Of a stretch of 64,000 nt of DNA, positions 2,287 to 13,702 are shown piece by piece. Positions within the stretch are counted from its first letter, which is position 1. Each line of letters begins with the position of its first letter. The notes under the pieces are model-generated. The model did not search any database, was not told the origin of the DNA, and saw only the letters and a list, made by a program, of their open reading frames with translations. Both the position numbers and the translations under genes were made by a program. Location: the NCBI GenBank assembly GCA_022844125.1, contig JALHMI010000014.1, positions 62,001 through 126,000 on the forward strand. The letters run 5' to 3'. The DNA comes from Pirellulales bacterium. GTDB taxonomy: Bacteria > Planctomycetota > Planctomycetia > Pirellulales > PALSA-1355.

Positions 2287-2372
2287 GGCCGGATGGCGAA
2301 ACTGGCAGACGCACGGGACTTAAAATCCCGTGGAGGGAAACCTCCGTGCGGGTTCGATCCCCGCTCCGGCCA
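2287..2372 (+). tRNA. tRNA-Leu(UAA)
   Basis: A complete cloverleaf with long variable arm is visible. Acceptor strands GGCCGGA (2287-2293) and TCCGGCC (2365-2371) pair over 7 bp, followed by discriminator A2372. The anticodon stem is CGGGA/TCCCG around loop CTTAAAA, giving anticodon TAA. The T arm is GCGGG-TTCGATC-CCCGC. CCA is not encoded. The 3' 58 bases also form one end of the 61-bp repeat that bounds the integrated element, so this gene is the integration target and was kept intact. Confidence 0.97.
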
Positions 2373-2375
2373 CTT
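2315..2375 (+). repeat. Attachment site attL inside tRNA-Leu
   Basis: This 61-bp stretch, from the anticodon stem through the tRNA 3' end plus CTT, is repeated without mismatch at 13642-13702. Flanks differ on both sides (C2314 versus A13641; A2376 versus G13703). It adjoins the integrase gene. A tRNA 3'-end identity block is the standard attachment core of tyrosine integrases. Confidence 0.95.
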
Positions 2376-2430
2376 ACTTACGGCGATTCGTCGCCACCAG
2401 GAAATTCCCCAACATGCGTTTAACATTCAA

Positions 2431-3543
2431 TTAGCTCGCCGTGCCGACCTTTGGCACGAATAGCGCCGCAACCGTGGCTTCGTGCTGCGGGGCGAGATTG
2501 ATGTACTTGAGCGTTGTCGTGTAGGACTTGTGTTGCATCTGGCTTTGCAACGCTGCCGCCGTCAGCCGTGACGCGTTCATCGTGGCAAACCCACGCCTAA
2601 AGTCGTGAAAGCCATACGCTCGCCCATCCTCGCGCCGAACCTTGGCCGCTTTCTGAATCTCCGCAAACTCGGCATATAGCGTGCGTCGCGAGTAATTCCA
2701 GGGGAACACCAGCGGGCCGAACCCCTTGATCTTGCGCAGGTGCTCCACGGCCAGCGGATGCAACGGGATTCGATTGTCACGCTTGCCCTTGTTGTCCGCC
2801 GCTCGACTTAACGCGAAGCCAGATTCTAGATTCACGTCATCCCAGCGAAGCGACAGCAGCGAGCCGATACGCCAGCCGGTCATCATCGCGAGCACTAGCA
2901 GAGCTTGCCACCAATCGGCAGCCGTGTAGTGTCCACCATCGGGGCGAGCGGCCGCGTTTGCGTTCGCGTACATACTTTCAAAATGCTCGGGCGTTGCATA
3001 AGTCGGAATCTTGCCCGGTTCGCGTAGGAACTCAAAGCACACTGTTCGCGAGCAGTATCCCCACTTCGCCGCTTTGCGAATCGCCGCGCGAACATGGCGC
3101 AACTCTTTATTCACGGTCGCCGCCGCAACTAGGGGCGTGTCTTTCGCGGCATTCTTGCTCCGCTTGGCGAACTCCGCGCTGCGCTTCGCAACGAACTCAT
3201 CCAGCGTGCGAGCGGAAATTGAATCCACGCGGGCCGGCGAGACTAGCCGCTGGAAGTGGTCCAGGGCTTGAGTGTATGCGCCCCGTGTCGCGGATGACCG
3301 CCCGGGCAAACCACGGTCGAAAAACTCTTTCCGAAAATCTGCCCACGCCTTGCGGCTGGTTGATTCATACGTGCCCGCCGCTAGTTGCCCTTCGATCTTG
3401 CGAGCGAACTTTTGTGCCCGGCTCTTCGCGCCGAGTGATTTCGATTTTCGCTTGCCCTCTGGATCGATCCAGCCGACCGACCACGGCGCATCGTCGCCCA
3501 ACTTTTGCTTTTGCCGGGGATCTTGGAAAAGCCATGCCTTCAT
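2431..3543 (-). CDS. int: Tyrosine-type site-specific integrase
   Basis: 370 aa. The N-terminal arm-binding part (about 1-70) is followed by a core-binding SAM-like domain (about 75-180) and a catalytic domain (about 205-360). Catalytic residues are visible: Arg225 in TGWRIGSLLSLRW, His313 and Arg316 in FHDFRRGF, His338 in MQHKSYTTT and the nucleophile Tyr347 in LKYINL. The stop lies 56 bp from attL, the usual position of an integrase that recombines at the adjacent tRNA. It should catalyse integration and, with a directionality factor (candidates at 12040-12494), excision. Confidence 0.96.
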   Translation of the reverse strand: MKAWLFQDPRQKQKLGDDAPWSVGWIDPEGKRKSKSLGAKSRAQKFARKIEGQLAAGTYESTSRKAWADFRKEFFDRGLPGRSSATRGAYTQALDHFQRLVSPARVDSISARTLDEFVAKRSAEFAKRSKNAAKDTPLVAAATVNKELRHVRAAIRKAAKWGYCSRTVCFEFLREPGKIPTYATPEHFESMYANANAAARPDGGHYTAADWWQALLVLAMMTGWRIGSLLSLRWDDVNLESGFALSRAADNKGKRDNRIPLHPLAVEHLRKIKGFGPLVFPWNYSRRTLYAEFAEIQKAAKVRREDGRAYGFHDFRRGFATMNASRLTAAALQSQMQHKSYTTTLKYINLAPQHEATVAALFVPKVGTAS

Positions 3544-3565
3544 AACGTCCTCCCTTGGAATGAAT

Positions 3566-3874
3566 TCACCCCGAGCGAGAGAGACGGGATAGCGGCGCGC
3601 GAGCGCGTTTCGCTAAACTGGCAGAATGCCATGACGTTCCCTCGCAAACAGGGTCGTTGTGGAACAGGGCCGGCCCGGTGTTATCAGCACTTGGCCGGCT
3701 CGCTTTATTATTGCGACTCGCGACCGTGTTTGCCATCGAATTCATTTCGCTTTTGCCGTGATTCTCAAGTGAAAAACGATGGTTTTCGGGCATGCCACCA
3801 GAGCCACTACGAGCCCCGTAGCCGCTAGGCAATCGCCAGCCTATTGCGAGCCAGTGACGCCGTTTCATGCTCAC
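3566..3874 (-). CDS. Possible small protein upstream of integrase (doubtful)
   Basis: A 102-codon frame whose GTG (3874-3872) overlaps the TGA of the preceding gene as GTGA, the arrangement used repeatedly in this element. An internal ATG at 3868 is an alternative start. The product is rich in Ser, Asn and Arg, has no recognisable domain and unconvincing composition. If it is not real, 3545-3870 is a 326-bp noncoding gap upstream of int that could hold its promoter. Confidence 0.3.
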   Translation of the reverse strand: MSMKRRHWLAIGWRLPSGYGARSGSGGMPENHRFSLENHGKSEMNSMANTVASRNNKASRPSADNTGPALFHNDPVCEGTSWHSASLAKRARAPLSRLSRSG

Positions 3875-4089
3875 CGTGAGCCGCTCCGTGGCTTGCTCAC
3901 TTCAAGCATCGCTGCCAGTTCATCATTTAGAGCGTCGAGCGTGCTTTTGAGTTGCTTCGCGTGCCGTTCGGCTTGCGATAGGCTCGCCTCGACGCTGGAA
4001 ATATCTTGACGCAACCGCTCGACCGTTTTTGCTGGCGTCAGTTGCCGGGCAACGTAGGCTCGCGCGTACTTGTCATCGGGCGCTGTCAT
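3871..4089 (-). CDS. Small coiled-coil protein of the element
   Basis: 72 aa from the ATG at 4089, which overlaps the TGA of the upstream gene as ATGA. An upstream in-frame ATG at 4104 is possible, but the overlap favours 4089. Residues about 20-60 form a heptad-like helix (ERLRQDISSVEASLSQAERH). I do not recognise a family. It sits downstream of the packaging genes, so a structural accessory or regulator is possible, but nothing in the sequence decides this. Confidence 0.65.
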   Translation of the reverse strand: MTAPDDKYARAYVARQLTPAKTVERLRQDISSVEASLSQAERHAKQLKSTLDALNDELAAMLEVSKPRSGSR

Positions 4090-4361
4090 TCTGCCTCGCT
4101 CCATTCACGCAACGACGCGATCAGCTCCACGCGTAGACGTAAAAGGTTCGCCAGATCGTCATTCGTGATCAGTTCCGACTGCGGATAGATTTCACCGAGC
4201 ATCCGGCAGTCAAGCCTATGCATCTCGATCGCAACCAGCACGCGACGTATAGACTCGGCCACGATCTCGCGATGCGACATACGCGCCAGCCGGCGAACGT
4301 CAGCCAGGGCTGTTGCCACGGACCGCGCCCCACTCTCAAGCACCTCATCGCGCGTGATCAT
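4086..4361 (-). CDS. Hypothetical helical protein of the element
   Basis: 91 aa beginning MITRDEVLESG. The ATG at 4361 is preceded by AAGGGGAA, a good Shine-Dalgarno. The same frame continues upstream without stop, but that part is a shadow of the neighbouring gene. The sequence is all-alpha in appearance, without signal peptide or recognised motif. It is translationally coupled to the 72-aa gene by ATGA. Confidence 0.7.
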   Translation of the reverse strand: MITRDEVLESGARSVATALADVRRLARMSHREIVAESIRRVLVAIEMHRLDCRMLGEIYPQSELITNDDLANLLRLRVELIASLREWSEAE

Positions 4362-4435
4362 CGGGTTCCCCTTAAAATGCCGGGCACCGACGCCAACGGC
4401 CCGCATACCGTCGACGCCAGCGCCCGAGCTATTTG

Positions 4436-5185
4436 CTACGAGTCGTTTTTCGGAATACTTCGAAACTGCATGTTTTCGGCCACCATTCGCTCCGCATCGT
4501 TCGCGGCTTGCTTGCGTTCGATCTTGGCAATCTCCGTGGTGATCCTGTCCACTTCCGCTTGCCGCTTGGCGAACTGTTTCAGATCCGAGCGAGCCGCTGC
4601 CAGGTGTGCCAGCATCACCGGGCGCTCGTCCAAGGGCGCAGCTTCGATCTTCGCTGGTAACGTGGCCACCAGCGCTTCGCATTCGGCGCGGCGCTTTAGC
4701 TCGGCGTCTTTCAGGGCGACACGGTCGCGAGCATGCGCCAAATTGTTGATCTCACCGCCGAACCCTGATGCCTTCGTGTCGATCCACTTGGCAGCCGTTC
4801 TGAACAGGAAGTTTCGCGCCTGCGAAAGCTGTGTGCTGTGAAAGTTCCGGGCCGTTACTGCCCGCACCTTGGCTGATTCAACGTCGCGCTGACGTTGTTC
4901 GTATACGGTCAGCATTTTGAAAAAAGGATCGTCGGCCAGCGCCTTTTGCGCTTTCGCTAACTCAGCATCAGCAGCTTCGGCGGCTTGCTTCTCCGCGCTG
5001 TTCTTGTCTGCCAGGATTGCGGCACAGCGCCGACGCTCGCCGAGCGTTTCAACATCCTTTTGCACGTCGGCCGGATCGCGATTGTCGCAATCGTCCGGCG
5101 TCAACGTGCCCTTGCAGATTCCCTTTTGATAGCCGAACTGACTCTGCGGGCTCGGGCCGCGTAACCTGTTGAGTAACTCAAGCAT
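4436..5185 (-). CDS. Long helical coiled-coil protein of the element
   Basis: 249 aa from the ATG at 5185, preceded by AAAGGACA at suitable spacing; an ATG ten codons upstream (5215) lacks this support. The N-terminal 50 residues contain three cysteines (CKGTLTPDDCDN and RRRC further on). The rest is strongly helical and rich in Ala, Glu, Lys and Arg. It lies just after the prohead-protease-like gene, where many phages carry a scaffold or capsid gene. The composition is more like a scaffold or size-determination protein than a major capsid protein, but this is inference from position and composition only. Confidence 0.7.
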   Translation of the reverse strand: MLELLNRLRGPSPQSQFGYQKGICKGTLTPDDCDNRDPADVQKDVETLGERRRCAAILADKNSAEKQAAEAADAELAKAQKALADDPFFKMLTVYEQRQRDVESAKVRAVTARNFHSTQLSQARNFLFRTAAKWIDTKASGFGGEINNLAHARDRVALKDAELKRRAECEALVATLPAKIEAAPLDERPVMLAHLAAARSDLKQFAKRQAEVDRITTEIAKIERKQAANDAERMVAENMQFRSIPKNDS

Positions 5186-5227
5186 TGAAATTGTCCTTTG
5201 TGTTGAATCGAACATTGAGAAAACAAC

Positions 5228-6115
5228 TTATCTGTACCGCTTTACCAGCGGCTCAAATGGATTCACCGAGCCCGTTCGGTCGATCGTTTTGCCACAGACC
5301 AGCGAGACGAACTCACCCGTGCTCATCGGCCGGGCGGATCGCTTGGGAGTCTGCTCAAGTAGGTACTGCCGCAGATCAGGACGTGCCGCGAGAATTTCGT
5401 CCGTCGTCGCCGCGTACACGTCGACCCCTTCGCGCTGTTCAGAGGCCACTGGACTTTTCGTCATTCCGGCAAGTGCCTTGCGGACTTCAGCCAAGCTGAA
5501 AATTTCCGCCATGCCGAGCTTCGCCACGGCGACGCCAGCACGTACGAGCCCATCAATCACGGAGTCATGGACGTTAAGCATCCCCCGCAGCTCTTGCCGC
5601 GTGACGAACTGATCGGCGCCGTCGGCAGAGATCGACTCGTACAGGCCGTTCGTCGTCGCCGCGTCGGCCACCACGTCGACGCTCACCACCTTCTCGATGG
5701 CTTCGACGACAAGCTTGCCGCCGGGGCCGCGACTGGTGCGAGCCTGCACGTTATGCGACAAGCCGACGTTCGCGGGCGAGTGCTCCGCGTCGTAAGCCAG
5801 CATCTCCGCGACAGGATGCTTCGGGTTGAAACGCAAGTCGCCGTACAAGCCGCCGCCCTTGACGTGCACGTTCTCAAGATGGCCGAGCCGGTCCTGGTAA
5901 TCGCGGGGACTACCTGGCGAGCCCTTGGCATGGTTCACGTTCACTTTGGCGCCTTCGTAGAGGGCCGCCGACCGCTCGATTGTCGCCAGCGGATACGTGC
6001 GACCGTTCTTCGATTCCGTTCCAAGAATCTTAACGTTGCGAATGACGTGATTTGCCACGTCGACGCGTCCGCCGCTGAATGCAATTCGTTCGGTGAGAAA
6101 TTCCAGGTTTTTCAT
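5228..6115 (-). CDS. Prohead protease-like protein
   Basis: 295 aa; ATG at 6115 preceded by CGGAGTG. The N-terminal 160 residues resemble phage prohead maturation proteases of the herpesvirus-assemblin/T4 gp21 type. They show SKNGRTYP (36-42), a candidate catalytic His in VNVNH (His62), a candidate nucleophile in NVGLSHNVQ (Ser120) and the conserved strand VVSVDVVADAATTNG (143-157). In phages this enzyme trims scaffold and capsid proteins inside the prohead. The C-terminal 130 residues are helical and could be a self-cleaved scaffold part. Here it lies directly after terL with no portal between and no capsid gene after it, which is unusual. Confidence 0.75.
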   Translation of the reverse strand: MKNLEFLTERIAFSGGRVDVANHVIRNVKILGTESKNGRTYPLATIERSAALYEGAKVNVNHAKGSPGSPRDYQDRLGHLENVHVKGGGLYGDLRFNPKHPVAEMLAYDAEHSPANVGLSHNVQARTSRGPGGKLVVEAIEKVVSVDVVADAATTNGLYESISADGADQFVTRQELRGMLNVHDSVIDGLVRAGVAVAKLGMAEIFSLAEVRKALAGMTKSPVASEQREGVDVYAATTDEILAARPDLRQYLLEQTPKRSARPMSTGEFVSLVCGKTIDRTGSVNPFEPLVKRYR

Positions 6116-6135
6116 AGTTTCACTCCGTTCCAGGG

Positions 6136-7560
6136 TTAAAGATCAAACACAGTTTCGGGCATCGGGGGCAGAGGGGGCTGATACTCTGTGATTGCCGCGA
6201 ACGCGTCGGGCAGGCAAAGCATCAGCGCGCTTGCCCGGTCGCAATGCCCCGAGCGATCGCGCGGCGCACTCGCTTTAACGCCCGTTTGCGTTTCGACCAG
6301 TTGCAGCTTGCCCAGGTCCGCAATCAATTCCGGCTCGCGATAGAGCTTGATTTGCCGGTCGCGAAACACCGTGATAAGCGAAGTCGCAAAACGGCTCAGA
6401 TTCGTCGGAGTCGATGGCGTCTCCCACACTGGATAGCCCGCGCGAATCAGTCGCTGCGCGAGCCCCGCGCAGTTCCACGGGTCAAAATAGCAGCAACGCA
6501 GGCGATACTGCCAGAATGCTTGTTGCACAGCGACTTCGATATCGTCGAGTTGAACATCGGCACCCGGTAGCGGCTTCCACGATTCACAGTTCGCCAAGCG
6601 AATCAGCCCCCGAGCCGGGTCGACGCCAAGCACCACTAACGCGCTATGGTCGCGACGAATCCCCAGATCGAGCCCGGCAATAAATAGATAGTCGGGCTCA
6701 TCGCCATTCATCGGGCCCAGCGTCGTGTCAATTGCCGCTTCGATATCCGCCGCTTCAAGTAGGTCGCCAGCTTGCGAAAGCCATTCGTTGAGCCAGTAGC
6801 GGCGAAACGTGCTCGACGGCAAGAGCCGCTCTTGCTCGGCGAGAATCTTCGGCGTGATCCAGCTTGCTTGCGGACCGTCGAGCCGTGAGAAATACCAATC
6901 AGCATCCGTCCGCGCGGCTTCGCGCACCTTCCATTGCCAACTAGTGCCCATGCCAAGCCCGGCATTCGAGATAATGCAGAGCAAGCACTTCGCTTGCTTC
7001 GCCGCTGAACTGAACAGCGAATGCCAAAGCGACTCGCCAGCATCTTTCCAATGACTTAATTCGTCCGCCACGACGAAATGCGGCAGGAGCCCGAAGCTGG
7101 TGGGCGCATCACTGCTAATGACCGATAACTCGCTGCCCGTGCGTCGGTTCACCACGGCACCGCGTTGCACGTCGAGCACTTCGCCGATCGGGGGATTGAG
7201 CCGACAAAGCGAGTCGATTGCGTTGAGCACCAGCCGCGCTTGATCGGCATCGCCAGCCGCAGCCACGCCACGGATACGCGACGGGGCAGCGTAGATTGCC
7301 CACGAAGCCATTAGCGCAATGTCGCTCGTTTTGCTGTGACCACGGGGCCGCTCAAGGTAGCCTCGCAACGTCGGGGGCGACTTCGGTTTGACGCCTGCCA
7401 CAACTTGCCAGCCAGGGTCGAGCGCGGCGAAGTCTGCCTCTTGCCAGGGGTCGAGCACGTCGACCAGCCGGCGAGGCTCGCCGTTGCATTCCACAATCAG
7501 GCGTTTGCGGAACTCGGCGGGGTCCGCCTTTACGGCCGCTTCGGTCGGTTGCTTGCTCAT
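6136..7560 (-). CDS. terL: Phage terminase large subunit
   Basis: 474 aa. The ATG at 7560 is supported by GGAGG nine bases upstream and by an ATGA overlap with the 43-aa gene; longer readings run into neighbouring genes. The ATPase domain has a variant Walker A RPRGHSKT (71-78), the alternative form seen in some TerL proteins, and Walker B VVADEL (163-168). The nuclease domain has acidic residues in GLDLG (Asp298), YFDPWN (Asp360) and GHCDRAS (Asp441). All motifs needed for packaging and headful or cos cutting appear intact, so the gene is probably functional. It would translocate DNA into a procapsid together with a small subunit. Confidence 0.93.
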   Translation of the reverse strand: MSKQPTEAAVKADPAEFRKRLIVECNGEPRRLVDVLDPWQEADFAALDPGWQVVAGVKPKSPPTLRGYLERPRGHSKTSDIALMASWAIYAAPSRIRGVAAAGDADQARLVLNAIDSLCRLNPPIGEVLDVQRGAVVNRRTGSELSVISSDAPTSFGLLPHFVVADELSHWKDAGESLWHSLFSSAAKQAKCLLCIISNAGLGMGTSWQWKVREAARTDADWYFSRLDGPQASWITPKILAEQERLLPSSTFRRYWLNEWLSQAGDLLEAADIEAAIDTTLGPMNGDEPDYLFIAGLDLGIRRDHSALVVLGVDPARGLIRLANCESWKPLPGADVQLDDIEVAVQQAFWQYRLRCCYFDPWNCAGLAQRLIRAGYPVWETPSTPTNLSRFATSLITVFRDRQIKLYREPELIADLGKLQLVETQTGVKASAPRDRSGHCDRASALMLCLPDAFAAITEYQPPLPPMPETVFDL

Positions 7561-7688
7561 CGTCCGCGCCTCCGTTGCTTGCGTGCTTGCCTTGCTTCGC
7601 GCCGATAGCGCTCGCGGTCGAGCCGGGCTTGCGTGACGTGCGTCGGGTGAAAGCACTTGCCCGCGTTTCTCTTTCGTGTTGTGGTCAC
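7557..7688 (-). CDS. 43-aa arginine-rich protein between terS-like and terL
   Basis: A GTG at 7688 overlaps the upstream TGA (GTGA), and its own TGA overlaps the terL ATG (ATGA). GGGAGG lies eight bases before the GTG. This double coupling plus a strong ribosome binding site is good evidence that the small frame is translated. The product begins MTTTRKRNAGKCFHPTHVTQ and ends in a highly basic tail (KQRRRGR). It may bind DNA or RNA, or act with the terminase; no family is recognised. Confidence 0.75.
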   Translation of the reverse strand: MTTTRKRNAGKCFHPTHVTQARLDRERYRREARQARKQRRRGR

Positions 7689-8332
7689 TGGTTGCCTCCC
7701 TGCGGCTCTGTGTGGCTTGCTGGTGCGTCCGCCTTGCCGAGAGTAGGCTGCCTATTGTTACAACTTGGAGAATTCCAAGTTGTCTTTTCAACCAACTCTC
7801 GCACCGACTTCACTAGGTGGTTGCTTTCGCCTTGCGTCGGGTCGGCTTCCACAATGCGGGCGTCTATGAGCGCCCACGGGTCGGCGTTCGCCTTGCTGCC
7901 GATGTTCAGTTCGCGGATCGCTCGGTCGCGGGCTTCGCTTGCTCGGGCCGTTTCCCGCGCGAAAGCCAGCCGCTCACTAGCGTTCAGCTTGTCGCATTCG
8001 AGCCGCAGCCAGCGGTTTGCCAGTTGGGCGACGCGTTCCCATCGTCCGGCGGTTTGGATAATCGCCGCGTTCACCAGATCGACTTCGCCGTGAGCCGCGA
8101 TCGTGGCAACCGTCAACGCCCGCGTGAGAGCCTGAACACGACGTTGCTCGCGAACCGCATCCTTTGGCCAGCCACCCCCGCGCAAGAAATGCTTGCCAGC
8201 GTTGCCGTTCTCAAGGGGTGCCCCCGGCTTGCTTGTACAAGTCCGCGAAACCTCGCTCGGCGCGTCGGTCGTTGCATGTTCAGTGAATGTCGCGGGGGTC
8301 GTGTCGCCGCAACTCGTTACGTGTTCATTCAT
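7685..8332 (-). CDS. Putative terminase small subunit-like protein
   Basis: 215 aa; ATG at 8332 with AGGGG about 11 bases upstream. The N-terminal 45 residues are Thr/Ser-rich and look disordered. Residues about 55-175 are helical and contain conserved-looking segments (FLRGGGWPKDAVREQRR, GEVDLVNAAIIQTAGRWER). I see no decisive motif. The TerS assignment rests on its place just upstream of terL and a size and helical content compatible with small terminases, which recognise pac or cos DNA. Confidence 0.55.
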   Translation of the reverse strand: MNEHVTSCGDTTPATFTEHATTDAPSEVSRTCTSKPGAPLENGNAGKHFLRGGGWPKDAVREQRRVQALTRALTVATIAAHGEVDLVNAAIIQTAGRWERVAQLANRWLRLECDKLNASERLAFARETARASEARDRAIRELNIGSKANADPWALIDARIVEADPTQGESNHLVKSVRELVEKTTWNSPSCNNRQPTLGKADAPASHTEPQGGNQ

Positions 8333-8444
8333 TAGGTTTCAGTCCCCTAGGATTGACAATCCAGTCCGGCCGTTTCGGGCCCGTTTCGACGCGTTCCGTT
8401 GACCGTGCTCGGGTCGGTAGGTGATCCAGGTGCTCGGGTACTCC

Positions 8445-8636
8445 AAAGGACACAAAGGACGCTTGGGACACTTTCCCTAGAGAGTCTCTCCGTGCGCGTG
8501 TGCGTGTGCGTGTATGCAATGGATATAAAAAAGCGTCCTAACCGTCCTTTGGTGCATTGAATCTGTTTGCTGCTGCTGGTTTGCGTCATTTTCAAAAGCG
8601 TCCTAGAAGCGTCCTTTTAAGGACACTTAGGACACT
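8445..8636. repeat. Iteron-like cluster, candidate replication origin
   Basis: The roughly 290 bp between the TerS-like gene and the PrimPol-helicase gene has no convincing gene. It carries nine copies of a GGACRC hexamer (one variant, CCGTCC) in both orientations. Plus-strand copies start at 8448, 8457 and 8466 (9-bp steps), and at 8621 and 8630 (9-bp step). Complementary copies start at 8533 and 8542 (9-bp step), and at 8598 and 8609. An AT-rich tract, GGATATAAAAAAG (8521-8533), lies in the middle. Phased direct repeats with an AT-rich segment next to a replication gene are typical of iteron origins. The last copies overlap the primase stop codon. Confidence 0.6.
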
Positions 8637-11053
8637 TGCCCTCGCCAAGAATGCTCGCGGATGCGTTGTTCCAGGTCGTAAGCGACTGCCGTGAAGCCCG
8701 CCATTGCCCACAGCACGCCGCGCCCATGTGTCCTTGAGGGGTTCAACTTCAGGCCGTGCAACGTGCCCTCGGTCGCCGCTTGGTTGATGGCTCGCATCGC
8801 GCCCGTCGTGCTGGTTTGAATGCCGGTCGCTTTGACGTACCACTCGCGAGCGATCACGTTCGGAATATGAACGGCGTCGCTGTCCGGGTCGTAGCCAAGT
8901 CGCTCTAGCTCTTGGCGAAAAGCATCTTCAATGATCCGGCTTTCCTCGTCGTCCACGTCGACGGCCGCTTGACGCTCCGCGATGACCGTTTGCGCTTCGG
9001 TCGGCTCGGGTAGTCGCGCGAGAATATCGCGTTCCCATTTGCCCCAGCGCGTGTGCTTGGCGAGGGGTTCGGCTGGCCCGTTCAGAAATGCCGCCAGGTC
9101 GCCCATGATTCGCCAGCGGTGCGTCTCGATAAAGTCGCGCAAGCCATCTTCCCAGTCGCCGGTGTGCGTCGGCTTGGCCAGCTTGATAATCACGGAACGC
9201 TGCGCCATATCTTTCGATAGCGCCGGCCCGTTGAGCGTGATGCACCAGAGAAGCGTGTTCGGTCGCGTTCGCTCGCCGGAATACATTTGGTGCCCGCTGA
9301 TCTCGCGGGCCGTGATAAAGGCCTCTAGCTCGCCCCAGGAAAGCTTGTTCTGCTTGACGTTATCAAACCCCACGACGCGCTTGGTCGCGGCCTCTGGCGT
9401 CAGCAGTCGCTTTGCAATGTCTCCTGCCCGGTCATCTTTTGAGATTGCGAACATGCCGCCCATTAGCTGCCCCACGGCTTCGACCAGGGTCGTTTTGCCC
9501 ACGCCTCTGCCATCATCCGACGCGACCACGAATGCCGGCCGTGATCCACCATCGCCGCCCCAAACAGCTGATGCGAACATCGCTTGAATCAAGTCGCGGT
9601 CAATTGGCGTTGCTGGTGCGAAGCGATCCAGCAGGGCGCGAAGATACTCACCGCCGCCAAGCTTGATTTGCGGGTGCCGATAGTAGTGATCGGCGAACGG
9701 CGGAAAGTGCGGGAACGCCTCGATCGCTCGATAGGCTTGTGCCGTCCGTTGCAGCTCCGCGAACACTTCGCCGCGCGAAACGCAGCCCGTCGACTTGTAC
9801 CATTCGACGGCGGCCGTGCTCGACAGCCACCCGAACAACTGATCGATCTTGGTGAAGTGCCCCAGGCCGTGTGCGGGATCGTCGATAAACAGAGTCGCGC
9901 CAACTCGACGCGGCCAGCCGCCCGTGATTTGCTGAATGTTGCCCAGGATTTCGGCGAGCGATTTGGGGATCGTCTCTTGATCTTGCCCCTCGCCGACGCG
10001 TTCAGCGTTCGACAGTACGCCCTTCTTTAATTCCGCAAAATTTTGCGGCTTTTCTGCCGGCTTGCGTTTACCCCGCGTTGCCGGTGCCCGTTCCGCAACC
10101 AGCAAGTGCCCGCGTTCGCCGTCTGCCCGCATCGCGCTGGCGATCTTGTGCTCTAGATCGTGATCGCCCCACGGCGGTTCGCAGCGTTCGTTGTACTCGC
10201 GCAGCAAGTCGAGCGCGTCATCGGGCCCCAGGTCGAAACCGATGCATAGAGCGCAGGCCACGGCGAACGTCCGATCATGCCCACCCGAGCCGCTAATGGC
10301 CGCGGGCATTTTCGCGATGTACTTGCGGGCGCGTTCGAGTCGCTTGCTGGAAATTGGTCCCAATTGGGACGAATTAGGCCGGTCGATAATCCCGGCAGAA
10401 TTGCCGGAATTAGGTCGGCTGCTAATTCCGGAATATTTTCCGGGATTGGAACCTGTGCAATTTTTTGCACAAGTCCGCTCCGGCCAGTAGCGATTCACCA
10501 GCGCCGTCAGTTCGGCTTGCCGTTCTTGCGGCTCACTCGGGCAGCCGTCGAGAATCAATCCCGTGACCGCGAAGTATCGGCCACGATCATAGACCTCGAT
10601 CGCTGGCGACTTGTCCGCGATGCGTTCCACTTCCGGCAATAGTTTTTTCTTGCCGCTCGACAGCGGAGATTCGCCGCGCAGGAACAACTTGACGCCCGTT
10701 TGGCTCGGGCTGATTTCGGTGTACGTATCAAACTGCTGGATTACTTCTCGCGCCCAGTTCGCAATCTCGCCAGTCTGCGGATTTCGGCAGCCGTCCAGAT
10801 CCATGCCGACCAGCCCGCCGCCCGCTACGAACACGAAGCCAGGCCCGTCGTATCCTTCGGCCCCCGCTGCTGATTTGAAACCAGTCCAGGTGTTTGCCGC
10901 CGTGGAACTAGCACGCTTGCCGGTCGCCGGGCTATACGGAACTTTCGTCGCCGCGCCGTCATCGCGCGATTCGCTGCGCCACGCGACCCATTGATCGAGT
11001 TGACGCAGCGTGTCGGGCACGTTTTGCAGCGGGTTAGTCGGTGCGTCGATCAC
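8627..11053 (-). CDS. PrimPol-helicase fusion, replication protein of the element
   Basis: 808 aa from a GTG at 11053 that overlaps the preceding TGA as GTGA; longer in-frame readings cross the upstream genes. Residues about 10-190 are an archaeo-eukaryotic-type primase-polymerase domain similar to phage NrS-1 polymerase: metal site GMDLDGC (83-89), SPSQTG (115-120), YFAVTG (160-165). Residues 240-312 resemble a PriCT helical domain. Residues about 480-700 form a helicase-like ATPase with Walker A DGRGVGKTT (514-522) and Walker B VVGFDN (560-565). The C-terminal 100 residues may be a winged-helix DNA-binding part. It probably primes and unwinds at a dedicated origin, as P4 alpha and PICI Rep proteins do. 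Confidence 0.88.
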   Translation of the reverse strand: MIDAPTNPLQNVPDTLRQLDQWVAWRSESRDDGAATKVPYSPATGKRASSTAANTWTGFKSAAGAEGYDGPGFVFVAGGGLVGMDLDGCRNPQTGEIANWAREVIQQFDTYTEISPSQTGVKLFLRGESPLSSGKKKLLPEVERIADKSPAIEVYDRGRYFAVTGLILDGCPSEPQERQAELTALVNRYWPERTCAKNCTGSNPGKYSGISSRPNSGNSAGIIDRPNSSQLGPISSKRLERARKYIAKMPAAISGSGGHDRTFAVACALCIGFDLGPDDALDLLREYNERCEPPWGDHDLEHKIASAMRADGERGHLLVAERAPATRGKRKPAEKPQNFAELKKGVLSNAERVGEGQDQETIPKSLAEILGNIQQITGGWPRRVGATLFIDDPAHGLGHFTKIDQLFGWLSSTAAVEWYKSTGCVSRGEVFAELQRTAQAYRAIEAFPHFPPFADHYYRHPQIKLGGGEYLRALLDRFAPATPIDRDLIQAMFASAVWGGDGGSRPAFVVASDDGRGVGKTTLVEAVGQLMGGMFAISKDDRAGDIAKRLLTPEAATKRVVGFDNVKQNKLSWGELEAFITAREISGHQMYSGERTRPNTLLWCITLNGPALSKDMAQRSVIIKLAKPTHTGDWEDGLRDFIETHRWRIMGDLAAFLNGPAEPLAKHTRWGKWERDILARLPEPTEAQTVIAERQAAVDVDDEESRIIEDAFRQELERLGYDPDSDAVHIPNVIAREWYVKATGIQTSTTGAMRAINQAATEGTLHGLKLNPSRTHGRGVLWAMAGFTAVAYDLEQRIREHSWRGQVS
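10357..10471. other. Run of five palindromes inside the PrimPol gene
   Basis: In 115 bp there are: a perfect 14-bp palindrome GTCCCAATTGGGAC (10357-10370); CCGGCA/TGCCGG with a 4-base loop (10392-10407); ATTCCGGAAT (10425-10434); an overlapping CCGGAA/TTCCGG hairpin (10428-10443); and TGTGCAA/TTGCACA with a TTTT loop (10454-10471). The segment encodes a Ser/Asn/Gly-rich linker between the primase and PriCT-like domains, so it is free of strong protein constraint. Confidence 0.75.
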
Positions 11054-11304
11054 TTCGCGATTCCTTGCTTTCCGGTTCCGGGGTAGTAGGTCCGCGTCGA
11101 GCCGCCAGCCGCGATGGCTTCGTTGTCCAGGTGAGCGCGGACACGATCGACGCTGCTTGCCATCTTCAATGCGTTGCGTCCGACGCTCGACGCTTTCGGG
11201 TGCGTGTTCGCAATCTCGCCGCCGAGTGTCAGCAGTCGGTTTCGAATCTCGAACAACTCCGCGCCAATCCGTTCGTGATCGGTGAGTGTCAGTCGCTTGT
11301 TCAT
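11050..11304 (-). CDS. 84-aa hypothetical protein of the replication operon
   Basis: Start ATG 11304 overlaps the stop of the ERCC4 gene (ATGA) and its TGA overlaps the primase GTG. The product begins MNKRLTLTDHERIG and is helical through residue 65. No family is recognised. Its place between a nuclease and the primase-helicase suggests a replication accessory role, which is inference only. Confidence 0.75.
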   Translation of the reverse strand: MNKRLTLTDHERIGAELFEIRNRLLTLGGEIANTHPKASSVGRNALKMASSVDRVRAHLDNEAIAAGGSTRTYYPGTGKQGIAK

Positions 11305-11792
11305 AGCACGGGTTCCACAATGTTCTGATGAAACGTCCGCAGCTCGCGCCAACGACGCCGAGCCGCACTAAACAGAATGCGAGCCGTCGCACGCTGCGCG
11401 GCCTCGCGATCGCCAGCAAACAAAAACGGCACGCCCCCGCCGATCCACGACAGGACCGATCCCGTTGCCGCTTGTGGCGTGAGCTTCGATCGCCAGTCGC
11501 CCGTCTCAAGATCGAGCCAACTAGCCTCGACCACGACGCATCGCGTTGGATACGCCAGCAGCCGTTGCAACTCACGTTCAAAGCGTTCACGTTCAACGCC
11601 GCAACATGCGACCAGATCGGGGAGCGATTTCCGCTCGATCGCGACAAGATGTTCCAGGCCACGAATCGAATAGTCGCCAGCCTGCAAAGTGCCGGGCTCG
11701 ATATTGAGCGGTGCCAGGTCAAACGCGAGTTGTTCGCGCGTGTCGACGATCGCCGTAACTTGCTCGGGTTTCAGTTCCGCGAGGAGCTTCAC
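11301..11792 (-). CDS. ERCC4-domain nuclease
   Basis: 163 aa. The XPF/ERCC4 nuclease core is clear: IVDTREQ (15-21), GDYS (39-42) and VAIERKSLPDL (50-60), matching the GDX(n)ERKXXXD signature. The C-terminal part (about 105-160) is helical and lacks an obvious helix-hairpin-helix pair, so this is a compact stand-alone nuclease. The family cuts branched or flap DNA. Here it lies in a replication operon, suggesting a job in processing replication or recombination intermediates. It overlaps both neighbours by four bases (ATGA). Confidence 0.9.
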   Translation of the reverse strand: MKLLAELKPEQVTAIVDTREQLAFDLAPLNIEPGTLQAGDYSIRGLEHLVAIERKSLPDLVACCGVERERFERELQRLLAYPTRCVVVEASWLDLETGDWRSKLTPQAATGSVLSWIGGGVPFLFAGDREAAQRATARILFSAARRRWRELRTFHQNIVEPVL

Positions 11793-12043
11793 AGCGAGCC
11801 TCCCGTGCGAGACTCGAAAACGAGTCGCAAGTAAGCGAGAATAACGGGATGGAAGGGCCGAAGTCGCTCATTGCGATCAATCAGCTTCAGCGCCCGAATT
11901 GAAGCGAGCCGCCAATGTTGCTCTTGAGCGCCGGGCCTCGCGGGCATTCGCTGGATTAGCCACGACTCAAGTTCAAGCAACCGATGCTGGATCACAGCGG
12001 CGTCGCGAAAACGCAAGAGTAGGTCATCTTCCGGCGCGGTCAT
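11789..12043 (-). CDS. 84-aa hypothetical protein of the replication operon
   Basis: Begins MTAPEDDLLLRFRDAAVIQH; ATG 12043 overlaps the previous stop (ATGA) and its own stop overlaps the ERCC4 start. It is helical and rich in Leu and Arg. No recognised family or motif. Coding status is supported mainly by the overlapping start and stop signals on both sides. Confidence 0.75.
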   Translation of the reverse strand: MTAPEDDLLLRFRDAAVIQHRLLELESWLIQRMPARPGAQEQHWRLASIRALKLIDRNERLRPFHPVILAYLRLVFESRTGGSL

Positions 12044-12303
12044 CGGTCCCCCAAAAATCGCAGTAACTCACCGCGGCTGTAGATGATTTTTTTGCCTAAC
12101 AATCGGCCGTGAATCTTGCCGTCGAGCCTCGCATCGCGCAAAACGTGCTTAGGCACGCCGTAGAGCGCCGCGGCCTCGGCCTCGGGATATCCCAGCCGGT
12201 CGTCGAGCTTGGCTTCATCGGCTTTGATCTCGGCGATCGTGGCGCGAACCACGGCAGTAATCAGCGGTTTCAGATCATCGATGTCGCGCGCGTCGAGCCT
12301 CAT
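12040..12303 (-). CDS. Excisionase-type HTH protein (2)
   Basis: 87 aa. Residues about 38-85 form a winged helix-turn-helix of the excisionase/MerR-like HTH_17 type (YPEAEAAALYGVPKHVLRDA, then a wing KIIYSRGELLRFL). The N-terminal 35 residues are an acidic helix. It may act as recombination directionality factor for the integrase or as an operon regulator. ATGA overlap on both sides shows it is co-translated with its neighbours. Confidence 0.8.
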   Translation of the reverse strand: MRLDARDIDDLKPLITAVVRATIAEIKADEAKLDDRLGYPEAEAAALYGVPKHVLRDARLDGKIHGRLLGKKIIYSRGELLRFLGDR

Positions 12304-12494
12304 TTCGTGCCCCCCGATGTTTGGGCAGCACGTTCAGCTAGAACACTCTCGACGATTGCCGGCGAGAATAGATAGCGGTCGCCCGCTTTCAGGCAGGGGA
12401 CGCGTCCGGCTTCCGCTTCAGCCTTCAGCCAGCGAGCCGGCACGCGGACTTGTCGGGCCATTGGGCCCAGCGGTAAGAGAGCGTTGTTTTCCAT
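12300..12494 (-). CDS. Excisionase/AlpA-type HTH protein (1)
   Basis: 64 aa and first gene of the overlapping operon. The sequence LGPMARQVRVPARWLKAEAE is a helix-turn-helix recognition unit of the same type as the next protein, followed by a wing (KAGDRYLFSP). P4-like satellites encode a comparable AlpA/Vis regulator that controls int and excision. The start codon lies inside a nested inverted repeat (12483-12526), which suggests autoregulation. Confidence 0.78.
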   Translation of the reverse strand: MENNALLPLGPMARQVRVPARWLKAEAEAGRVPCLKAGDRYLFSPAIVESVLAERAAQTSGGTK

Positions 12495-12526
12495 ACCCTC
12501 ATTTTCGAGGGCACGCGGAAAACAAC
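12483..12526. promoter_or_regulatory. Nested inverted repeat over the operon start
   Basis: Outer arms GTTGTTTTCC (12483-12492) and GGAAAACAAC (12517-12526) are perfectly complementary. Inner arms CCCTC (12496-12500) and GAGGG (12507-12511) pair around ATTTTC. The structure spans the start codon (12494-12492). It could be a repressor operator in DNA or a hairpin in the mRNA that hides the start. Confidence 0.65.
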
Positions 12527-12545
12527 CAGGAAAGGATGATGCAAA

Positions 12546-13343
12546 CTAGATGCAACTATCCGCAATATAGCGAGCCGCGAGTGCTTTCCCCTTTTCCGTA
12601 AGTGCTGCTCCCGACTTCGGACCTTGGGGACGATCGCACCAGCCTTTGCTTATCATGCGTTTCACAATGTCAGTGATGGTCCGATCGCTCGGTGCCGTTT
12701 TGGGGTTCTCCTTCCGCAAGCGCTCTTCGATGGCGTTATTCGTCATCGTGTGGCCAGCATCGAGAAGTGCCCGCAAGACCATCGCTTCGTGCTTACCAGG
12801 CGTTTCGACCTCGTTGTCCTCGACCCTCGATTCGCTCGCTGCTTCGCGCTCACTTGCGATATCGTGCAGGACGGCTGATTCCAGCACTAGCCGTTGTGCG
12901 ATTCGGCGTGCCGGAACTTCCCGGGTACGAGCCAGGGCGTTCCATATATCCTGCCAGTGATCGCGCACAAGCATTATTCGCAGCCCGCCGTGACGGTCCG
13001 CAGAAGCGGGCCCGGGCGTTTCGATTTCGCACGCTTCGCGCACGCAATGCCACTTTGCTCTCGCATGGAAAACGGCAGCCTCATACGCTGAAACAGCCGG
13101 CGTTGTGGTCTCGAACTGCCCCAGCCGCACCGCCGCCTCGATCAGTTCGCCACGGAAGTGCTCAACTTCGTAGAACAATTTCTGCATCTTCGAGCGAATT
13201 TCGGACACGAACGCCGTGAACTCCACGGGGTTCCAGCTCAGCCCGTCGCCCGTTGCGGCCGCCGTCTGAAGGCAACATGCAGAATCGGCTAGCTTAGCGT
13301 GCTCCCGCCAATTGTCGGCCAAAGCCCAGAGTGGGTCGCCCAT
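12546..13343 (-). CDS. Winged-helix protein, probable regulator of the element
   Basis: 265 aa, first gene next to attR. Residues 1-165 are helical with no family I recognise. Residues about 183-262 form a winged-helix domain: KHEAMVLRALLDAGHTMTNN, then ITDIVKRMISKGWCDRP, then a wing GAALTEKGK. This is typical of MarR/ArsR-like folds. Its position as the outermost gene suggests a lysogeny or induction regulator. It is separated from the HTH operon by about 51 bp that hold a palindromic site. Confidence 0.7.
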   Translation of the reverse strand: MGDPLWALADNWREHAKLADSACCLQTAAATGDGLSWNPVEFTAFVSEIRSKMQKLFYEVEHFRGELIEAAVRLGQFETTTPAVSAYEAAVFHARAKWHCVREACEIETPGPASADRHGGLRIMLVRDHWQDIWNALARTREVPARRIAQRLVLESAVLHDIASEREAASESRVEDNEVETPGKHEAMVLRALLDAGHTMTNNAIEERLRKENPKTAPSDRTITDIVKRMISKGWCDRPQGPKSGAALTEKGKALAARYIADSCI

Positions 13344-13373
13344 CCGTGAATCCCCCGTTAATAGAACCGGGGA

Positions 13374-13419
13374 AGCCCGAGCGGCTTGACGCGACGGGGG
13401 TCACGAAGCCGATCGGGCT
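13374..13419. promoter_or_regulatory. Inverted repeat upstream of the winged-helix gene
   Basis: AGCCCGAGCGGCTT (13374-13387) and AAGCCGATCGGGCT (13406-13419) are near-perfect inverted copies with an 18-bp spacer, 31 bp upstream of the start codon at 13343. It is a possible operator or 5'-leader hairpin. The rest of 13420-13641 has an AT-rich tract (AAAAATATTATTG near 13460) that could hold the promoter, but no gene. Confidence 0.5.
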
Positions 13420-13641
13420 CACTTTGTCGGTCGCGTTGCAATCGCGAGTCGACGCCCGGTAAAAATATTATTGCGGGTCGCGGGCGTTTGGGAAAGTTAC
13501 CCGCCAGCCGCACGCCGTAACATTCATACAACATTCATCGCGTAGTCTAGAAACGACTACGATGCCCGATACTCACTGTTGAGAAACCTCGTAAAAACAA
13601 GGGTAGCTGTAGGTGAGCGTAGGGCCGCATAGGGTAAGGTA

Positions 13642-13702
13642 GGGACTTAAAATCCCGTGGAGGGAAACCTCCGTGCGGGTTCGATCCCCGCTCCGGCCAC
13701 TT
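13642..13702 (+). repeat. Attachment site attR, tRNA-Leu 3' fragment
   Basis: Exact second copy of the 61-bp block. Here the 5' half of the tRNA is missing (preceded by GGGTAAGGTA), so it is not a functional tRNA. It marks the distal boundary of the element. Confidence 0.95.

Follow-up and report, generated by a model that had tools for sequence, protein, structure and literature searches.

A stretch of 64,000 nucleotides from Pirellulales bacterium GCA_022844125.1 (contig JALHMI010000014.1), here called the window, carries at positions 2315-13702 an element, W, which is probably an integrative phage satellite that would use helper capsids, fill them by means of its own terminase and interfere with the helper's scaffold. 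Since W has no portal, capsid or tail genes, those of a helper would have to be used, and the element probably packs into the shells of a planctomycete virus family whose capsid genes are also permanent in many hosts. Two identical 61-nt copies, the left one being the 3' part of a tRNA-Leu(UAA) gene, enclose 11.3 kb, and the 14 open reading frames (ORFs) assigned to W all lie on the minus strand (Table 1). As regards the general features of satellites, W has an integrase and attachment (att) sites and is without a full virion gene set.

Packaging proteins and gene content of W

The reading is carried by a block of genes encoding a small terminase-like protein (TerS), a large terminase (TerL), a prohead protease (PRO) and a coiled-coil protein (P259). 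The motor and nuclease residues of TerL are invariant across 12 homologues, and matches to cultured-phage records were found only at <30% identity. PRO, which has no match in Pfam, yielded an AlphaFold model with mostly high confidence over residues 1-150 that matches the T4 gp21 prohead protease (5jbl) with a Foldseek E of 1.4e-7. His62 and Ser120 are invariant in a 27-row alignment of W and viral-contig proteases, and all six satellite proteases have the GxS site. No PRO homologue was found among 50,697 cultured-phage records; the protease domain of W is about 60% identical both to PRO of a chromosomal gene cluster in its own genome and to PRO of phage L111, a viral contig. The 215-aa protein is labelled TerS because it is kept just upstream of TerL in related elements, where 12 such proteins form one family. 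P259 occurs in two of 396 genomes, those of W and of element L021 (G002 besides the window genome), and has no match in IMG/VR; we infer that it is scaffold-like.

Helper-type proteases unite a coiled-coil region with the C-terminal motif [DN]A.[SA]F[VA].[AS][IL]. Homology and the tree show PRO of W to be derived from a head module of Planctomycetota that joins protease, coiled-coil scaffold region and C-terminal motif in a single protein. The protease and the motif are kept in W, the coiled coil is mostly gone and the separate coiled-coil protein P259 adjoins.

An earlier note on this DNA had reported the 61-bp direct repeats of the tRNA-Leu 3' part, which are exact, with an integrase next to attL, and both are confirmed. 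The PrimPol-helicase, the ERCC4 nuclease, the Xis-like and HTH proteins and TerL, which it also named, were all recovered by profile, and its prohead-protease-like gene is borne out by the fit to gp21, though Pfam is silent. Its TerS-like call holds as regards position upstream of TerL and finds no family or structural match. Portal, capsid, tail and lysis genes, which it had found missing, had zero matches in profile scans of the 14 ORFs.

The same ORFs gave no match to an HNH endonuclease, an ERCC4 nuclease being there instead. Outside W, matches in G001-G003 to a YchF-like GTPase of the flank reach only 34-35%, and the W locus could therefore not be aligned with an empty site.

Table 1. Features of W in window coordinates.
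Feature	Position	Strand	Evidence
tRNA-Leu(UAA), integration target, remains intact	2287..2373	+	ARAGORN; Rfam RF00005
attL, 61-nt exact repeat, 3' part of tRNA	2315..2375	+	exact-repeat comparison
Tyrosine integrase, 370 aa, beside attL	2431..3543	-	PF00589 E 2e-14; phrog_1 E 1e-37
77-aa coiled coil	3871..4104	-	ORF list; profile scan
91-aa protein	4086..4361	-	ORF list; no profile match
P259, coiled-coil protein, 249 aa from ATG 5185, C-terminal VAENMQF	4436..5185	-	homologue, shared C-terminal motif
PRO, putative prohead protease, 295 aa, His62 and Ser120, capsid-type tail motif GEFVSLV	5228..6115	-	gp21 fold; homology
TerL, 474 aa, K77, E167, D298, D360 and D441 present	6136..7560	-	phrog_9 E 1e-27; PF03354
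TerS-like protein, 215 aa	7685..8332	-	position upstream of TerL in related elements
PrimPol-helicase, about 808-815 aa	8627..11074	-	phrog_13901 E 2e-41; DUF5906
100-aa protein	11050..11352	-	ORF list; profile scan
ERCC4-type nuclease, 163 aa	11301..11792	-	PF02732 E 1e-7; phrog_3490
84-aa protein	11789..12043	-	profile scans
HTH_17 DNA-binding protein, 87 aa	12040..12303	-	PF12728 E 3e-6
Excisionase-like (Xis) protein, 64 aa	12300..12494	-	phrog_1840 E 1e-4
Winged-helix (wHTH) regulator candidate, 265 aa	12546..13343	-	PF03965 E 0.004, below cut-off
attR, 61-nt exact repeat	13642..13702	+	exact-repeat comparison

Relatives of W and probable repeated capture of the protease

TerL homologues were found at two further places in the window genome and in 11 of 97 genomes, and a profile search of 396 genomes of the order detected the W-type TerL in 23. 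A profile search of genome contigs, for which we used alignment A2 since alignment A1 was too diverse, returned matches nearly all titled Planctomycetota. Repeat-flanked elements with this TerL span 9.8-17.8 kb. Exact tRNA repeats border L020 (tRNA-Phe, 14.9 kb, contig C10 of the window genome), L021 (tRNA-Cys, 9.8 kb), L024 (tRNA-Ser), L028 (tRNA-Leu), L029 (tRNA-Met), L030 (tRNA-Lys), L139, L140 and L269; L270 and L275 have repeats of 46 bp and 24 bp, respectively. A further TerL element of the window genome (L019, contig C17) has serine-recombinase-like genes, and no flanking repeat was found for it.

One relative, L021, lies in a second genus and carries the same TerS-TerL-PRO-P259 block as W, with TerL and PRO 53-56% identical. 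In both elements the portal gene is absent from exactly between TerL and PRO, and the ERCC4, HTH and primase genes of W are common to other satellites and not to the phages L111 and L112. Other relatives carry structural genes: L029 a capsid (PF05065) and a portal (PF04860) gene, L025 PF04860 and a capsid relative, L139 and L269 capsid and portal genes; a tape-measure gene is present in L029 and in L023. Because of the genes found in L029, L025 and L023, a capsid-forming branch exists, and W is one of a varied set of Planctomycetota elements with predicted capsid-less and capsid-forming members. In L029, L113, L110 and L023, all of them small elements or contigs, capsid genes are accompanied by a tape-measure protein and few other tail genes were recognised.

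In the tree of TerL, a clade of W and L021 (support 100/98) stands beside phage L112 (96/79), the capsid-forming elements mostly together and the capsid-less ones at several places; phages and satellites have therefore probably exchanged terminases.

Outside head modules PRO was found in six elements: W, L021, L091, L094, L096 and L275. In the PRO tree, from which the later-found L275 is absent, five changes are required to account for the five satellite rows, and well-supported branches force at least four of these. The neighbour of W is phage L111 (94/72), both lying within a branch supported at 95/90 in the clade of cluster and phage proteases; these placements are rough because bootstrap values are unsettled and several rows are long. 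Satellites thus appear to have captured the head-module protease several separate times. The tail motif is present in all five satellite proteases tested, once in W and L021, three times in L091 and twice in L094 and L096. Its copy number is greater in satellites (P 0.017, for five proteins and a pattern written after the sequences had been seen). The longest tail run free of proline and glycine measures 15 residues in W, 19 in L021 and 15 in L091, as against a cluster median of 34, a clear loss of coiled coil in these three.

Other TerL elements carry unrelated proteases, namely Peptidase_S78 in L103 and DUF2213 in L140, and L270 encodes a protein that by eye is DUF2213-like, with three copies of PLVAPxLxF in its tail. 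A second motif, [LMFIV]V[AP][EP]x[LM]x[FW], closes P259 as well as the corresponding proteins of L021 and L091, and recurs in the protease-like tail of L270; this pattern, also written after the sequences had been seen, matches 4 of 3093 proteins.

Proposed packaging, candidate helpers and alternative readings

We propose that Xis and the integrase would excise W, that the PrimPol-helicase and the ERCC4 nuclease would replicate and process its DNA, and that its TerS:TerL pair would take the place of the helper terminase and so select satellite DNA. PRO and P259 may then vie with the scaffold of the helper for capsid protein, seed satellite-sized procapsids and finally mature them. The model here is CpmB of the Staphylococcus aureus pathogenicity island (SaPI) SaPI1: CpmB and the scaffold of the phage have a C-terminal capsid-binding motif in common, and CpmB competes for capsid protein (PMC5644958); Rcm is thought to act like CpmB (PMC12409344). 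By this analogy, interference with scaffolding is the most likely role of the PRO/P259 pair.

The likeliest helper is a temperate phage with the Planctomycetota head module. The PRO search found this protein in 151 of 396 genomes, in one copy in most, and the first 13 loci examined all lay within a phage-like gene cluster, one of them (L072) later proving to be part of a prophage. The cluster is ordered ParB-like, ABC-ATPase/GNAT, TerS, TerL, portal, PRO, cement, capsid and then, in some, tail genes. Its loci (L062/L076 on contig C27 of the window genome, L063-L070 and L073-L075) are syntenic and mostly single-copy, occupy a conserved chromosomal site and have no integrase nearby, and flanking genes are shared across G000, G002, G080 and G085 (families f1 and f7). 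Of 296 genomes, 129 have the cluster capsid gene, as a single copy in almost every case and mostly at 55-86% identity. A syntenic single-copy cluster fits vertical descent, and it is a candidate gene transfer agent (GTA) of the order; no paper on such a GTA-like cluster in this order was found in the open-access library. In several planctomycete genomes (loci L149, L150 and L152-L157) a gene for a k2-type ATPase adjoins a TerL of the W type, in some cases together with a portal gene; these loci may represent another version of the conserved cluster.

The head module also occurs in phages. In the window genome, C1:101965-152088 (L232-L072-L233) is a 50.1-kb prophage bounded by 39-bp tRNA-type repeats; it carries the same head module, an integrase and tail and replication genes. 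Further phage capsid genes (PF05065, PF25209) lie at C10:165957, C5:341574 and C18:14315 and therefore belong to other prophages or remnants. The IMG/VR contigs L111 and L112 carry a W-type TerL, portal, PRO and capsid, and no relatives of the W integrase, PrimPol or ERCC4 genes were found in their available stretches.

Several observations weigh against a satellite with its own terminase and a captured protease. The TerS-like protein has no family or profile match and no structural match at E 0.001. The single motif copy in W is weak alone (shuffle P 0.065-0.125), as is that in L021, and L275 was left out of the tail-motif and coiled-coil tests. Tail runs of 27 residues in L094 and 33 in L096 show no clear reduction, so that loss of the coiled coil is true of some satellite proteases, not all, and the cluster range (15-59) itself begins at 15. 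Because the C1 prophage has a TerL of another type and its PRO is only 41% identical, it is perhaps not the helper. Finally, genes come from a simple custom caller, many relatives are contigs of metagenome-assembled genomes, and "capsid-less" was examined in full for W alone.

The helper could instead be the chromosomal cluster itself, the terminase of W loading satellite DNA into host-made particles, which we regard as unlikely, if worth serious thought. The syntenic clusters speak for it, as does the identity of about 60% between PRO of W and that of the cluster in its own genome, versus 41% for its own prophage. Each of the six genomes in which a PRO-bearing satellite was found has a chromosomal head module as well, in a biased sample that is unusable as a test because most were found among genomes with two PRO matches. 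The nearest PRO in the tree, however, comes from phage L111, and the clusters of G080 and G085 (family f7) end a short way past the capsid gene, with no recognised tail genes. We give slightly less credence still to the fuller version, in which W would be a satellite of a domesticated GTA, its TerS-TerL loading host head-tail particles while the truncated PRO and P259 displace the scaffold.

It is improbable that W is the remnant of an L111-type prophage of 30-50 kb decaying in place. TerL and PRO do have phage homologues, and W is without lysis or structural genes, but its ORFs are open, its att repeats are exact and the portal is gone from the very same place in W and L021. We rejected a recent deletion because the block recurs at a tRNA-Cys in a second genus, at the identity given above, and because the early genes match those of satellites and not of the related phages. 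The arrangement that the earlier note would have taken as evidence of a remnant, the same genes within a full prophage, was not found, L111 and L112 having a portal between TerL and PRO, plus a capsid. Its satellite family with its own terminase and protease stands in so far as two genera share the block and other intact tRNA-flanked relatives exist; packaging is the part that we infer.

Nor is it at all probable that W is a non-packaged anti-phage island, with TerL and PRO serving only to interfere with phages: such interference is frequent among satellites and PRO copies exist in elements without TerL, but the catalytic residues of TerL are kept, PADLOC gave no match for W, and a TerS-TerL pair beside a DNA replication module would be left unexplained. 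That W is a complete minimal phage with portal, capsid and tail too divergent to recognise is highly implausible and was rejected since, despite P259 and several small ORFs without known relatives, P259 looks helical by sequence, no other unassigned ORF besides the 265-aa wHTH candidate exceeds 100 aa, and capsid-making relatives show recognisable PF05065 and PF04860.

Comparison with known satellites

The satellite P4 is integrative, has a primase-helicase and is devoid of capsid genes, as is W. General profile scans of the 14 ORFs, with no dedicated search, returned none of the names Sid, Psu or P4 alpha. We know of no TerL-protease set belonging to the phage-inducible chromosomal minimalist islands (PICMI) or the phage-inducible chromosomal island-like elements (PLE). 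P4 differs from W in being packaged by the P2 terminase with the Sid scaffold (PMC10690885). PICMI and PLE, compared with W by description, are likewise small integrative satellites whose packaging genes are few (PMC11389934).

Capsid-forming phage-inducible chromosomal islands (cfPICI), defined by their own portal, capsid and connector genes (PMC10690885), share with W an integrase, an own TerL, a head maturation protease and a small size, and with L029, L139 and L269 the capsid and portal genes as well; for their TerS, W has a candidate counterpart by its place upstream of TerL. W differs in having no portal, capsid or connector genes and no match to their HNH packaging endonuclease, and L029 in carrying a tape-measure gene. 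SaPIs hijack capsids through CpmA/CpmB, as we propose for W by analogy, but bring TerS or a cos site where W has its own TerL and protease (PMC10690885). Compared by description only, a SaPI-like phage-inducible chromosomal island relies on the helper TerL. In Pseudomonas, the 16.8-kb capsid-less element AH14b is packed in capsids of the co-resident prophage AH14a; the host is another, and the parts of that report available to us mention no own TerL-protease block (PMC4936722). Likeness to RcGTA of Rhodobacter capsulatus and other GTAs (a syntenic, mostly single-copy head-tail set with no nearby integrase) concerns the candidate helper cluster, a putative GTA, and not W.

If the satellite reading is true, W would fill the space between satellites equipped with TerS alone and those carrying an entire capsid of their own, the satellite providing motor and protease and the helper the shell. 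Repeated capture of the protease, in versions that retain the motif and often have a reduced coiled coil, would then make interference with capsid assembly directly testable. The work on W has, in addition, drawn attention to a GTA-like gene cluster that is conserved in a large order of bacteria.

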